Assembly (NCBI GenBank): GCA_025464925.1
Contig: JAODMS010000261.1
Coordinates: forward strand, 1-5,847
DNA length: 5,847 bases
Direction of reading: 5' to 3'
Source: Arthrobacter sp.
GTDB lineage: Bacteria; Actinomycetota; Actinomycetes; Actinomycetales; Micrococcaceae
The notes under the pieces were generated by a model, which saw only the letters and a list, made by a program, of their open reading frames with translations, did no database searches and had not been told where the DNA came from. Shown piece by piece: positions 1 through 5,847 of this stretch. The stretch's first letter is position 1. The number at the start of each line of letters is the position of its first letter. The position numbers and the translations under genes are program-made.

Positions 1-65
1 AGCTCAGCTGGTAGAGCGCCACGTTTACACCGTGGATGTCATCGGTTCGATCCCGGTAGGACCCA
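1..65 (+). tRNA. tRNA-Val(UAC), 5' end cut off by the window edge
   Basis: The window opens in the D-arm (agctcagctggtagagcg). The anticodon stem ccacg/cgtgg closes a seven-base loop tttacac, which puts UAC at the anticodon, so the tRNA reads valine codons. The T arm is atcgg-ttcgatc-ccggt (41-57). The acceptor 3' strand aggaccc (58-64) is followed by discriminator A at 65. About nine 5' bases, expected to begin gggtcct, lie outside the window. CCA is not encoded; the next bases are cac. The gene's 3' end from position 51 is duplicated at 5092, which shows that it is the insertion target of the neighbouring element. The insertion leaves the tRNA sequence complete. Confidence 0.93.
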
Positions 66-68
66 CAC
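51..68 (+). repeat. attL core, 18-bp direct repeat in the tRNA-Val 3' end
   Basis: The sequence tcccggtaggacccacac covers the end of the T-loop, the 3' half of the T stem, the acceptor 3' strand, the discriminator base and three further bases. It is identical to 5092-5109. Identity stops on both sides (cga before it here against gcg at the right copy; tttg after it here against agac). The crossover therefore took place within these 18 bases, and the pre-insertion attB should read through 51-68 straight into the sequence at 5110. Confidence 0.88.
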
Positions 69-218: not shown

Positions 219-1678
219 ATGGCACCACGGGGGGAGAAGCATCGGGAAGACGGTGACGGGTCGATCTTCCGGATCACAAGCAAGCGGAAGGACGGCACCG
301 TTGTCGAACGGTGGGGTGCCGACTTCACCATGGGATACGACTTCATGGCAAGCGAGTCGTTGCCCAGGGTCAGGGAGCAACCAAACAGATTGCCCGTGAC
401 AGGCGTGAAGCAGCCCGCCTGAAACTTCTTGTCCTCCAAGGCAAAGCTCCCCCTCCGTCCTCACAGGGGAGAAGCATGCTGTCCGCAGGGAAACCGTTCA
501 GCAATACCTTGAAAAGTGGTTTGCCACCCTGGACCCGGAGGAAGTGGGAGATGCCACCCGACGCTCCTACCGCTCCAAGCTCGAACTTCACATTTATCCC
601 CATATCGGGGACATCCCTCTCCTGCTTCTGACGGAAGAGGACATCCACACGCTCTTCCACGTCACCCTGAAAAATAAGGTTTACGACCCGAAACGCCCTA
701 GAGCTGCGAATCAGCAACGGTGGTCTGCTGAACATCTGGAAGCCCTTGGGTAAGGCTCTGAGCATGGCTGAGAACAAGGGAATCATCCCGCTCGACCCCA
801 TGCGTTCCGTCAAGAAACCCAGGGTTGAGGAAAAGGAAGAGACTGTCTACTCCTGGAAGCCCAAGTATCTTCTGGAACAGTTGGACGGTGACCCCGATGA
901 AGCAAAGTGGCTGCTCAGTTTCGTCCTTGGCTTGCGTATGTCCGAAAAGATCGGTCTGACCTGGGATTGTCTGAACCTGAAACCCCGTGGCGGAAAGCCG
1001 GCAACGGTCAGCATCAAGCAGCAGTTGAAGTGGCACGTCTCCGAACATGGATGCGGCAAGCGTGACAACGAAACGGCTCTCTACCCCTGTGGCAACAAGT
1101 CAAGTGCCCGTTGTCCGAAACAGATCGGCGGCGGTGGGCTATACGTCGATCCGGTGACCAAAACGGCAGCAGGTAAGCGGACGCTCCCATTGCCGACACA
1201 GCTGCAGAAGCTTTTGCTTGAACATCAGAAGCGTCAGGCAGCCGTGAAAAAGATGTATGCAGGAACCAAGGACTGGGATCCGTTGCCCGGTCTGGAAGAT
1301 CTTGTGTTCACCACTGCCAACGGACGCCCAATGAGCCAACAGCGTGAAAACACGGCGTGGCATGCGTTGTGCGAAAAGTTCAATGTTCCGATGCAACGTG
1401 GGCACCTCAACAGGCACGTTGTTGCCACCTTGCTTGCCGAAGCCGAAGTCCCCCCTGACAGGGCACAACTTATCCTAGGGTGGTCTTCCGCACGCATGCT
1501 CAGCACCTACACGCACCTGAGGGCTGTGAAGCACGCTGTGGAGCCCATGCAAGACCTGGAACGGGTCATGTTGGAACGGCAGACCTCAGCACGTTCCCGA
1601 GCCGTTGTAAAGGCTAGGAAGCTTGCGGACAAGAAGGCTTCACTCATGGATGACGGTAACGAGGAAGAAGCGGTCTGA
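219..1678 (+). pseudogene. Tyrosine-recombinase integrase, N-terminal half disrupted by three frameshifts
   Basis: The reading begins at ATG 219 (MAPRGEKHREDGDGSIF), which resembles the arm-binding N-terminus of actinobacterial phage-type integrases. The coherent protein then jumps frames three times. After MGYD (~341) it continues as LHGKRVVAQGQGATKQIA. Near the G run at 466-469 (cacagggg) it continues as GEKHAVRRETVQQYLEKW. Near 695-703 it continues as ELRISNGGLLNIWKPLGKAL into the intact catalytic domain. The first two jumps each fit one missing base and the third fits one extra base. Joined, the protein would be about 485 residues with the usual order of arm-binding, SAM-like core-binding and catalytic domains. 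It should recombine the 18-bp tRNA-Val site. Three lesions in ~360 bases, beside a 2.8-kb cargo frame with none, argue for real decay rather than random sequencing error, although homopolymer errors cannot be excluded. No clear Shine-Dalgarno precedes 219. Confidence 0.8.
746..1678 (+). CDS. Intact catalytic half of the tyrosine recombinase
   Basis: This uninterrupted frame holds the catalytic domain of the disrupted integrase. Counting from TTG 746 as residue 1, the active-site residues are R64 (LGLRMSEKIGL), K144 (AAGKRTLPLP), H220 and R223 (GHLNRHVV), W246 at the usual second His/Trp position (LILGWSS), and the nucleophile Y255 (STYTHL). A His/Cys-rich insertion (H101, C103, C115, C123) resembles the HGCG...CG...CP insert I recall from actinobacterial integrases. 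The C-terminus is basic and then acidic. The open frame extends upstream to about 671 with no ATG, so TTG 746 and ATG 764 are the available starts and neither has a convincing ribosome-binding site. If translated alone it would lack the arm- and core-binding domains. It is listed separately because its catalytic residues are complete and a gene caller would report it. Confidence 0.75.
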   Translation: MGKALSMAENKGIIPLDPMRSVKKPRVEEKEETVYSWKPKYLLEQLDGDPDEAKWLLSFVLGLRMSEKIGLTWDCLNLKPRGGKPATVSIKQQLKWHVSEHGCGKRDNETALYPCGNKSSARCPKQIGGGGLYVDPVTKTAAGKRTLPLPTQLQKLLLEHQKRQAAVKKMYAGTKDWDPLPGLEDLVFTTANGRPMSQQRENTAWHALCEKFNVPMQRGHLNRHVVATLLAEAEVPPDRAQLILGWSSARMLSTYTHLRAVKHAVEPMQDLERVMLERQTSARSRAVVKARKLADKKASLMDDGNEEEAV

Positions 1679-1880: not shown

Positions 1881-4703
1881 ATGGGGGAAGTCATCGCCGG
1901 TCACATCTACTCTGAAGTGCTCGCCTATTCGGACAAGAACCTGTTGCCGTGGCAGAAAGATGCCCGTCGCCGGCACACGGCTTCTCCCACGCTGTCTGAT
2001 ACTGAGGTCAATGAACTGACCGACATCGCCTATGCGACGGCACTCTCAGACCTGAGTCTTGGACTGGAACACGAGGACGAAACGGCCACGCTGAATCCTC
2101 CGGAAGCACTCCCGCTGACTCAGCACCACATCCCGAGCAGTTCTTCTGACAGCCCGCCTGTCACGATCAGTAAGATCACGCATCAAAAGGGGGTTAACCG
2201 GATGCGTGAAAACACTGAACTCACCCTGGCTCCCAAGGGCATCGTCATCATTTACGGTCTCAACGGGGTAGGGAAGTCCGGGTATACACGGATCCTGAAA
2301 TCCTCCTGCCACTCACGGCACCCCGAAACTATCTTGGGCAACGTTTTCAAGCAGGAAGATGTGGAACCCCGTGCGTCGGTGGACTACCTGCTGGGGGACG
2401 AGAACAAAACCCATGAGTGGAACCTGCGGGAGCCAAGCGAGGACCCGAACCTCTCACGAGTGGCAGTTTACGATTCCAAATCAGCCGCTTCCCACGTCTC
2501 AGCCAAGGGCACCACCCTCACTGTCACTCCGGACGGACTCGAACTCTTGCAATCCCTGATTGCTACCTGCGATGCCGTGGGAGCAACAGCGAAACGCAAA
2601 CAGGCTGCACTGAAATCAATGTCCGCACCCAACATCTACTCCGAAGCCACCGTTGCCGAAGTCCGCAGGGTCATGAAAATCCTGGGCAAGTTTGGTGGCA
2701 TCGAGCTCGTCAAGGAAATCGCCAAGCTGACAGAACCCGAACTTGCGGAGCTCGAATCCCTCCCCGGAACCATCAGCAACAGGAAAACCAACAGTAAGAC
2801 CACCCGGCTCGCTCATGCCCAAAGCAGGATGAACCAGACCAAGACCCTGGCACGCAGGATTGAAACGCTTGCCGAAAAGGTCAACGCCGAACAGATCACG
2901 GTGCTGTCAGGGATCTGGAAACGCCTTAGCGAAATCAAGGTAGAGGAAGCCGCACAATCACAGCATGACTTCTCACAGGAGGCAGTGGCTGGGGTTCTGA
3001 CAAGGCATTGGCACACCATGTGGGAGGCAGTGAGAATCTACTCCGACACAGAGGCTTACCCCGATCAGCAGTTCCCCTCTGACGGCATGGACAACTGCGT
3101 GCTGTGTCATCAGCCTCTCACCGAGGAAGCACACGAGCGTTTCCGTCAGTTTGAACGTGCCATGAAAAACGACCTCGCAGCCGAGAAGCACCGGCTTACC
3201 GAATCAGCCAAGGTCATCGTTGCGGGCATCAGGAATGCGGTCTCAGCAGAGCAGATTGATAATGACCTGCTCACAGTGCTGGCAGCCGAAAACGGTGCAG
3301 TCATCGTGCAGCTGCGGCTGGATCTGCACACCGTCACGGAGCTTCTCGAAAACCTGCCCACGGACACAGATACCGCTGAATCCATTGATGCCAAGGTTGC
3401 ACCCTTCATTGAAGGTTCTGAGCTTGCCAACGTTGATGGTGATGGCGGTTCTGTGGAAGGTTTTACCCTTACGGACAGCTTGGGCGAAGCAGTTACCTTC
3501 ATCGGGAAGATGGCGAAAACCTATGAGGCGGATGTTCAGGAGATTCAGAACGAAACCGGGGATGCCTCCGAGCTCGCCGCATTGCAGTCACAACTGACCA
3601 GCCTGCAGGAACGTGCCGCTGTCGCCAAGGCTCTGCCACAGTTGAAAAAGCTGCATAACAGGCTGATCCACATCGATGCCTTGCAGGAGGTCATCAAACA
3701 GTGCAACACCCGAGGTCTCTCTGATTATTCGGGGAAAGTGTGCCAGGAATACGTGGAGCAGGTTGCCGCTGACTTCAAGGGCAACCTCAGGATCCTGGAA
3801 GATCGTCCACGGGGAGCAGACAATGAGCCGCAGCTCAAAGTGGACCTCATTGCCACCAAAGTCGACAAAGGCGTCAGCAAGATTGCCTTCAACATTGTGG
3901 GAGCCCAGAAAAAGTCTGCCTCGGAGGTTTTGTCCGAAGGTGAGTTGAGGGCGGTCAGCATAGCCGCTTTCCTCAGCGATGTCTCCAGCAGTGGTGATGG
4001 TTCCGCTGTCATCCTGGATGACCCCATCACCTCCCTCGATTCAGCGTTCCAAATCAAGGTTGCTCAGAAGCTGGTGAAGGAAGCCAGGAACCGTCAGGTG
4101 ATCATATTTACGCACTCCATGGCGTTCGCAGGTGCACTGTGGCATGAGGGCATCAAGAAGGACAGGGAAGAGCAGATCCGTGAAGGTATCGATGATCCGG
4201 TCAAGGTGGAATACAGCTTCATCGAGATAACTCAACGTGAGGAAACGGGCACGGGTCAGCAGATTCCCGGAACTTCGCCCAAGGGTGGGTTCAAGCCACT
4301 GCTGGCGACACTGCGGAATGAGCAGTATCCCAAGGCGAAGGCTCTGTATGACTCAGATGACCACTCAGCCTACGAACGGGAAGTTGAGAACATTTGCAAC
4401 AACCTCCGGAAGGTCTGGGAGCTTGCCGTGGAGGAAATCCTTATCAACGGCATCGTGGCAAGGAACCAGCCGAGCGTATCCACGCAGCACCTCAAAACAC
4501 TGCTGGTGATGAAGGAAAAGGACATCGTTGCTGTCAATGACGGCATGAACTTCAACAACTTTTACGTGCACTCCACTGCCGAGGGCAATGAGAAGCGGAT
4601 CCCCACTCCGGCGGAGATCTTCCAGCGGTTGGAGGATGTGCGACTCTTTGCCAAGGATATTGGTGACCGCCGCAAGGAACAGGCTGATGAGTGGTCAGTC
4701 TGA
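1881..4703 (+). CDS. RloC-like zinc-hook ABC ATPase, putative tRNA anticodon nuclease (defence cargo)
   Basis: The 940-residue protein has the domain order of the RloC/PrrC-type ABC ATPases. Residues 1-115 are an N-terminal extension with the pattern LLPWQKDARRR (21-31). Walker A is GLNGVGKS (126-133). Two probable coiled coils (about 220-395 and 415-610) flank a CVLC zinc-hook apex (C406, C409, then QPL). The ABC signature is LSEGE (684-688), Walker B AVILDD (709-714), the D-loop SLD (718-720) and the H-switch H745. The C-terminal ~150 residues contain R843 and E847 in LRKVWE and H897 in YVHS. This R-x3-E...H order matches the Arg-Glu-His triad of the PrrC anticodon nuclease. In that family the ATPase senses DNA damage or anti-restriction activity and unleashes tRNA cleavage to abort phage infection. 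Here that role is inference. ATG 1881 is the first start in the frame and suits the short distance to the WQKDA motif, but no Shine-Dalgarno is visible. No toxin partner or restriction system is adjacent, so it appears to act alone. Nuclease activity is less certain than the ATPase call. Confidence 0.85.
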   Translation: MGEVIAGHIYSEVLAYSDKNLLPWQKDARRRHTASPTLSDTEVNELTDIAYATALSDLSLGLEHEDETATLNPPEALPLTQHHIPSSSSDSPPVTISKITHQKGVNRMRENTELTLAPKGIVIIYGLNGVGKSGYTRILKSSCHSRHPETILGNVFKQEDVEPRASVDYLLGDENKTHEWNLREPSEDPNLSRVAVYDSKSAASHVSAKGTTLTVTPDGLELLQSLIATCDAVGATAKRKQAALKSMSAPNIYSEATVAEVRRVMKILGKFGGIELVKEIAKLTEPELAELESLPGTISNRKTNSKTTRLAHAQSRMNQTKTLARRIETLAEKVNAEQITVLSGIWKRLSEIKVEEAAQSQHDFSQEAVAGVLTRHWHTMWEAVRIYSDTEAYPDQQFPSDGMDNCVLCHQPLTEEAHERFRQFERAMKNDLAAEKHRLTESAKVIVAGIRNAVSAEQIDNDLLTVLAAENGAVIVQLRLDLHTVTELLENLPTDTDTAESIDAKVAPFIEGSELANVDGDGGSVEGFTLTDSLGEAVTFIGKMAKTYEADVQEIQNETGDASELAALQSQLTSLQERAAVAKALPQLKKLHNRLIHIDALQEVIKQCNTRGLSDYSGKVCQEYVEQVAADFKGNLRILEDRPRGADNEPQLKVDLIATKVDKGVSKIAFNIVGAQKKSASEVLSEGELRAVSIAAFLSDVSSSGDGSAVILDDPITSLDSAFQIKVAQKLVKEARNRQVIIFTHSMAFAGALWHEGIKKDREEQIREGIDDPVKVEYSFIEITQREETGTGQQIPGTSPKGGFKPLLATLRNEQYPKAKALYDSDDHSAYEREVENICNNLRKVWELAVEEILINGIVARNQPSVSTQHLKTLLVMKEKDIVAVNDGMNFNNFYVHSTAEGNEKRIPTPAEIFQRLEDVRLFAKDIGDRRKEQADEWSV

Positions 4704-5091: not shown

Positions 5092-5109
5092 TCCCGGTAG
5101 GACCCACAC
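5092..5109 (+). repeat. attR core, 18-bp direct repeat
   Basis: This is an exact second copy of the tRNA 3' end segment at 51-68. It is not part of a tRNA here: the preceding bases (accctgttgcg) form no T arm. It therefore marks the right junction of the inserted element. The chromosomal sequence resumes with agacaaacccc and the probable native tRNA terminator. Confidence 0.88.
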
Positions 5110-5245: not shown

Positions 5246-5847
5246 ATGGAAGCCGTCAGGGATTTCCTCCCGTCCCAGGACACGGACCAGGCCGATGGCC
5301 AGGTCCAGTTTCCCGGCGTGTATGCCGGCGTGGAGGATGCCCTCGCTGGGCTTCAGAGGGTGGGCTCGACCGCGGTGGCGGACGCGGCGTTCTGGGGATT
5401 CCGGGCCGCGTCCGACTTCGCCGGCCGGGTCGAGGAACTCTCCCGGACCGTAGAGTATTTCCAGCTCGTCGCGGCCGCCGCGGTGGACCGCACGAGGCGC
5501 CAGGCAACGGCCGAGGCCGGCAACAGTCGGGGCGCCGGGATTGTGGGCTGGACCACGGGCTGGCGCGACACGTGCGCCGATGGCCGGGACGGCACTCCGG
5601 ACGCTTCTGCCGGCGTCGGCGCTGACGCGCCATGTGACACGGACGGTACTCCAGGCGCTTCTGTCGCTTCGGAGGTTTCCGGCTCCAAGGATGCCGACGC
5701 TGTAGACGACGGGTACCGGAACACTACGGAGTTCCTGCGGGCCCGGTTGCGGATCAGCGCCCCGGAGGCCCGGCGCCGGCTCGCCCTCGCCGAGGACCTG
5801 CTGCCCGAACCGCACGATTGGATGAGGCAACCTAAAAAGTCGCTGCC
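5246..5847 (+). CDS. DUF222 / HNH-endonuclease-family protein, 5' part (runs off the window)
   Basis: The frame from ATG 5246 (MEAVRDFLPSQDTDQAD) stays open for 200 codons to the window end. Two stretches are characteristic: VEELSRTVEYFQLVAAAAVDRTRRQA (about residues 66-91) and YRNTTEFLRARLRISAPEARRRLALAEDLLP (about 159-189). They match the DUF222 N-terminal domain found in multi-copy actinobacterial proteins, related to the 13E12 repeat family, that usually end in an HNH nuclease domain. That domain would lie outside the window. Between the two blocks is a low-complexity Gly/Ala/Asp/Ser linker (about 110-155). Codon third positions are strongly G/C, unlike the element genes. No Shine-Dalgarno precedes the start (tggcagaatttagtc). 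The biological role of the family is not settled. The gene belongs to the chromosome, not the element. Confidence 0.85.
   Translation, partial: MEAVRDFLPSQDTDQADGQVQFPGVYAGVEDALAGLQRVGSTAVADAAFWGFRAASDFAGRVEELSRTVEYFQLVAAAAVDRTRRQATAEAGNSRGAGIVGWTTGWRDTCADGRDGTPDASAGVGADAPCDTDGTPGASVASEVSGSKDADAVDDGYRNTTEFLRARLRISAPEARRRLALAEDLLPEPHDWMRQPKKSL

Follow-up and report, generated by a model that had tools for sequence, protein, structure and literature searches.

The closest described systems to the locus analysed here are the RloC anticodon nucleases characterised in Geobacillus kaustophilus and Acinetobacter baylyi, which are usually encoded outside restriction-modification (R-M) operons (PMC2610378, PMC3874168; here and below, statements from cited papers refer to passages of them). 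In the G. kaustophilus protein the CxxC hook lies at residues 288/291 and the triad consists of R692, E696 and H737; mutating any of the three abolished cleavage in vivo, and mutations of the hook raised it (PMC2610378). The same source described the triad as E-x36-52-H after R-x3, and in 2008 it listed RloC sizes of 658-897 amino acids (aa). Here we describe a 940-aa open reading frame (ORF) in a 5,847-nucleotide stretch of an Arthrobacter sp. contig (JAODMS010000261.1; hereafter the window), whose product shares with RloC the ATP-binding cassette (ABC) head split by a coiled coil, the CxxC hook and the C-terminal R-x3-E-x36-52-H pattern. With a probability of roughly 0.78, we consider it a long-subgroup RloC-family anti-phage anticodon nuclease, carried on a 5,041-bp islet at the 3' end of tRNA-Val(TAC) in which no other gene was recognised as intact.

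The ABC ATPase motifs, the C406/C409 hook and the R843-x3-E847...H897 arrangement claimed in an initial annotation of the window were all present in the 940-aa ORF, and the triad has the layout R843-x3-E847-x49-H897. Direct reading placed the signature LSEGE at 684-688, the Walker B and D-loop DDPITSLD at 713-720 and the linchpin at H745. Head residues S685, E688, D713, D714, P715, S718, L719 and D720 were invariant in an alignment of 47 rows (A1; 49 database matches plus the window protein, minus the identical P0002 and the fragments P0046 and P0047), and SMC/Rad50 heads with coiled-coil stubs matched residues 93-804. To collect homologues, one genome per species was scanned with patterns built on the Walker B and His-switch regions, outside the C-terminal domain, and the best 80 of at least 454 relatives (L001-L080) were taken; the counts of hook and triad keep all 80. 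C406 and C409 were each found in 80/80 loci, R843 in 79, E847 and H897 in 78 each, and the full triad in 77. The exceptions were L071, which meets a contig end, L034, with E changed to D, and L073, with Thr at the His position. In the 77 complete triads the R-E spacing was 3 throughout, and the E-H gap ranged over 48-52. The triad residues ranked first to third for conservation within residues 795-940, followed by R861 (77/80) and E851 (73/80). Among 49 protein-database rows (including the query, without the identical P0002, with two fragments kept), R was found in 44, E in 47, H in 48 and both Cys in 49. Because they are conserved across 80 homologous loci, the predicted hook and triad motifs are more than chance matches.

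The closest of the genome-scan matches listed, L001 (67% identity), came from an uncultured Nesterenkonia, whose family, the Micrococcaceae, is the one covered by our family-level scans. A phage search with the 940-aa protein gave no match, and a plasmid protein search returned 262 records, led by an Arthrobacter plasmid (50% identity). The ratio of nonsynonymous to synonymous substitutions (dN/dS) was about 0.13 against two relatives (0.246/1.91 and 0.176/1.34), a rough value since dS exceeds 1. With an intact ORF and this ratio, the gene appears to be under purifying selection, and hence the islet cargo looks maintained.

PADLOC assigned the protein to PDC-S06 (E 4.6e-138 and 1.7e-130), with the long models (843-862 aa) fitting best, and made the same call for four long homologues and for 7/7 short RloC-type proteins scanned. 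For comparison with short proteins we used 24 of 45 viral-contig loci L139-L183 (729-810 aa; set A3), which are RloC-type by architecture, none itself characterised. This set was drawn from the 34 tabulated loci (11 were not tabulated), leaving out five frames below 500 aa, four near-duplicates and L157 (858 aa), in which the hook was present and no triad-like pattern was found; L160 was kept despite having no triad pattern match. The triad counts in A3, R in 24/24, E in 23/24 and H in 24/24, lean towards triad-bearing proteins because proteins like L157 were left out. Ser preceded the His in 20/24, the E-H gap was 37-43 in 20 and 54-55 in the remaining four, the hook Cys lay at 256-296 and the Walker A glycine at 34-46. 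Both numbering and motif are close to those of the characterised G. kaustophilus RloC. Profile alignment with hhalign of the 47 long against the 24 short proteins gave a probability of 99.7 and E 2.5e-25, beginning at residue 403, immediately ahead of the hook, and ending at E847; it placed R843 and E847 on R649 and E653 of the short group, the His lying beyond the alignment end. The C-terminal domains alone aligned weakly (probability 2.5, E 0.019), their alignment pairing the two histidines. PA14, alone among the strains listed in 2008, was given two RloCs (PMC2610378), and it carries two PDC-S06 by PADLOC (PMC11878078). Since the motifs and numbering of the short set, the shared PDC-S06 call, the profile alignment and the PA14 match come together, RloC membership by architecture and homology is likely.

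Hence the initial reading as an RloC-like ATPase held. Its doubt over a 50-residue step from E to H is removed, because the published RloC range is x36-52 and the gaps of 48-52 found here fall inside it. Its description of the triad as PrrC-type stood as far as the R-x3-E...H pattern goes, but the pattern is RloC's as much as PrrC's. The full length exceeds the sizes listed for RloC, as do 12/80 homologues (above 897 aa, counted from the first possible start). Judged from sequence, the long PDC-S06 proteins form a long subgroup of the RloC anticodon nucleases; the combination itself is a known architecture, and therefore its novelty is lower than the initial annotation supposed.

A structure model of residues 790-940 (mf1817403f562) was a confident helical bundle, with a predicted local distance difference test score (pLDDT) of 90.2 and a predicted template modelling score (pTM) of 0.83. 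The alignment behind it (A2) held the window protein and 76/80 loci, leaving out L071 (cut), L035 and L052 (near-duplicates by eye) and L073 (without the His), and its His column is invariant partly by selection. The top eight Foldseek rows, from the PDB, were four chains titled HEPN and four MntA-HepT-type toxin-antitoxin chains, the toxin of which is presumably a HEPN protein. HEPN folds thus headed the list as initially proposed, but the scores were weak (probability 0.35-0.97, E at least 0.18; VIA Z non-discriminating), and the model is suggestive of a HEPN-like fold. A BFVD fold search gave nothing significant, nor did the C-terminal profile when run against the sequences of solved structures; PrrC or RloC structures were not in the fold-search lists, an absence which proves nothing.

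By analogy with characterised RloC (PMC2610378, PMC3874168), the Rad50-like head with its hooked coiled coil would act as a sensor of DNA damage or foreign DNA and would keep the C-terminal HEPN ribonuclease silent. Binding of DNA ends by the head, together with ATP hydrolysis, would release the HEPN domain, and the R843/E847/H897 site would then cut host tRNA in the anticodon loop, with excision of the wobble base as in RloC, so that translation would stop and the phage infection abort. Phage protection by RloC is listed as not tested (PMC12322248), and the A. baylyi protein gave the damaged host at most a subtle advantage (PMC3874168). Two observations of our own weigh against strict conservation of the triad: Ser occupies the Arg position, with E and H kept, in 7/18 family loci (L082-L099) and also in three database proteins (P0048-P0050). 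This Arg-to-Ser clade consists of L087-L090, L092-L094 and P0048-P0050, from the same and related bacteria.

A small but appreciable likelihood goes to an ABC-HEPN ribonuclease of the same build that cuts mRNA, rRNA or phage RNA, not the tRNA anticodon loop. HEPN ribonucleases have many targets (PMC3710099), the sequence of the C-terminal domain differs greatly from that of the short RloC group, Val and not Ser precedes the His in 29/30 close rows, and R861 and E851 add two more conserved charged residues. However, the triad spacing class, the hook and the head are the same as in RloC, which favors the anticodon nuclease.

The islet was recognised by an exact 18-bp repeat whose copies lie 5,041 bp apart. 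The GC content is 55.6% between the repeats versus 67.3% in the right flank, and a terminator-like hairpin lies just right of the second copy. Stretch 1-66 has 100% matches in many genomes of the family, and four full copies in relatives were tRNA-Val(TAC) by ARAGORN. Matches to the site without insertion were found in 10/395 family genomes (41-73 bases from the repeat onward, 78-88% identity), a lower bound with two candidates scored per genome; in two further family genomes the right-flank match lay only further right than the repeat. In 8/8 of the matching genomes inspected, tRNA-Val was directly joined to a hairpin like that of the window's right flank, and the two of these tRNAs run through ARAGORN were both tRNA-Val(TAC). 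These matching sites are uninserted sites. Because the repeat bounds 5,041 bp at the tRNA-Val(TAC) end and relatives carry uninserted sites, the islet is a real insertion at the 3' end of this tRNA. Besides the 940-aa ORF, the sole other recognised gene in it is a broken integrase, and between the ORF and the right repeat only short overlapping frames were listed.

No R-M gene was recognised in the islet or the 5.8-kb window by ORF list and Pfam. The initial statement that no restriction system is nearby therefore holds locally, for these 5.8 kb. R-M genes were adjacent or within a few kb in 5/6 family neighbourhoods fetched (L111-L116): type III plus GmrSD-like in L111, type I in L113, ResIII-type in L114, type I in L115 and HsdR in L116. 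Visual inspection of L112 revealed no R-M gene, and the one ORF scanned there had no Pfam match. R-M-like genes lay within the fetched flanks of at least 11/80 loci, a lower bound obtained with seven HsdM/HsdR/Mod/Res queries at E < 1e-8, with one or both flanks shorter than 3 kb in 26/80 loci; the other 69 loci gave no match to the seven queries, with which distant R-M genes are missed. The 2008 paper counted 8/73 RloC near R-M (PMC2610378). The type I or III genes of the family neighbourhoods and the R-M-like flanks favor a toxin that depends on silencing, one that, like PrrC, would have an R-M complex as its usual partner and would now be orphaned on the islet. We regard this as improbable: A. 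baylyi RloC was activated in the same way in R-M mutants (PMC3874168), and the window gene keeps an open frame and is under selection in an islet where no R-M gene was recognised. Independence from R-M at the window locus is plausible. Of the stand-alone cargo proposed initially, one intact recognised gene in a tRNA islet was confirmed, but a self-contained system was not established, with R-M genes so often near family homologues. A DNA-repair or SMC-like protein without ribonuclease activity would fit the Rad50/SMC-type head and coiled coil, but a repair role alone is very improbable because the triad outranks every other residue of the C-terminal domain, and inspection of the window, with no search aimed at one, revealed no further long ORF for an Mre11-type partner.

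The long group also carries an N-terminal helical module with an invariant Trp (Table 1). Counting from the earliest start available, the 80 long homologues have their Walker A glycine at residue 97-215; the short proteins have no room for such a module. The Trp was found in 37/40 of a further protein set, the other three being shorter or cut frames. Some database entries, e.g., the 832-aa P0008, begin the protein further downstream despite an open frame. Going by residue numbering, the two characterised RloCs seem to be without the module. Querying with the first 75 residues of a homologue, in a search reaching proteins 0.55-1.75 times its length, returned 98 proteins. Since 95 of these are labelled AAA_13 and the other three (P0060, P0091 and P0145; all read, two scanned) look like shortened members, no other architecture bearing the module was found among the 98. 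The module is undescribed in the passages covered of the RloC, PrrC and PDC-S06 literature, in which no text search was aimed at it. It is conceivable, if rather doubtful, that the long PDC-S06 proteins are a second RloC class, in which the module would be an added sensor or safety catch and the ribonuclease would respond to another signal, in place of or in addition to DNA breaks, and might cut a different tRNA. The copy described here would then be a complete one-gene abortive-infection system, because it is the sole working gene recognised in the islet.

Table 1. Features of the window and the basis of each call.
Feature	Position	Strand	Basis
tRNA-Val(TAC), 3' part, 5' end cut by window start	1..66	+	Rfam tRNA model 1-65, 45.9 bits
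Left attachment-site repeat, within tRNA 3' end	51..68	.	Exact 18-bp direct repeat with 5092-5109
Tyrosine-integrase gene, disrupted across several frames	219..1678	+	Only long open piece 746-1678, Pfam Phage_integrase E 5.4e-15
RloC-type ABC-ATPase/HEPN gene, 940 aa, no internal stop	1881..4703	+	PADLOC PDC-S06 E 4.6e-138; Pfam AAA_13 51 bits
N-terminal helical module, residues 1-92, invariant W24	1881..2156	+	W24 80/80; model helices 6-20, 23-34, 40-61
Walker A GLNGVGKSG, residues 126-134	2256..2282	+	Sequence; G131 and K132 each 80/80
Coiled-coil arms, about residues 220-640	2538..3800	+	Long helices in structure model
CxxC zinc hook C406/C409	3096..3107	+	Both Cys 80/80 in homologues; zinc hook predicted from sequence
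ABC signature, Walker B, D-loop, residues 684-720	3930..4040	+	Invariant alignment columns
C-terminal HEPN-like domain (suggestive), residues 798-940	4272..4700	+	Model of residues 790-940; HEPN entries top Foldseek, weakly
R843-x3-E847	4407..4421	+	79/80 and 78/80; in register with short-group R-x3-E
H897	4569..4571	+	78/80
Right attachment-site repeat, then native tRNA terminator	5092..5109	.	Exact 18-bp direct repeat with 51-68
DUF222-like ORF, chromosomal right flank, cut by window end	5246-5847		Pfam 21.2 bits, under curated 24.4

The 503-aa open integrase frame of a relative aligned to the window in frames 3, 2, 1 and 2, and the frame breaks may be either decay or assembly error. Intact relatives were found in 6/395 family genomes at E <= 1e-30, the best at 50% identity, and a search of viral contigs found no relative. 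A mobility gene of a different kind, a resolvase-domain ORF (L001:9180-9902), lies beside the L001 homologue. The islet also has its own terminator-like hairpin, seen by eye at 69-150 right after the tRNA, which resembles the post-tRNA sequence in L202/L221. Short stretches of the flank ORF were matched in 3/10 genomes of one genus, and the right-flank search of these 10 genomes gave matches inside this ORF only. A plasmid search with the window DNA gave no match. A small gene (176-180 aa, a membrane protein by eye, no Pfam match) adjoins the RloC-type gene at L111:11506-12048(-) and L114:6456-6986(-), two loci whose surroundings otherwise differ; tblastn at E <= 1e-5 over the 80 loci found no relative of it.

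These results would extend an experimentally characterised tRNA-cutting mechanism, by analogy, to the broad branch of long PDC-S06 proteins, for which we found no functional study, and give this candidate family a testable active site. They also present a minimal tRNA islet in which the gene travels with no other intact gene recognised beside it. How such ribonucleases stay silent can be approached directly through the Arg-to-Ser clade and the invariant N-terminal Trp, and the N-terminal module is the part with most to learn.

Among known systems, PrrC shares the ABC ATPase and the R-x3-E...H pattern; it differs in its size of 341-416 aa, is without the hook and coiled-coil insert, and has been described as always found in linkage with a type Ic R-M locus (PMC2610378, PMC3874168). 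The best match of the PADLOC PrrC model lay at residues 709-757, within the ATPase, and membership in PrrC was rejected because of the 940-aa size and the hook. Rad50/SbcC, LmuB of Lamassu and AriA of PARIS have related ATPase heads. The best stretches of the LmuB and AriA matches end before residue 800, and Rad50, SbcC and gp46 are without the RloC-type C-region (PMC2610378). PDC-S06 is a candidate single-gene defence family in PADLOC, a label for which the passages covered state no mechanism. Compared with RloC itself, the window protein is longer and begins with a seemingly additional module of about 92 residues, its hook lies at 406/409 versus 288/291 in G. kaustophilus and hook Cys 314 in A. 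baylyi (PMC2610378, PMC3874168), and the residue before the triad His is Val versus Ser.
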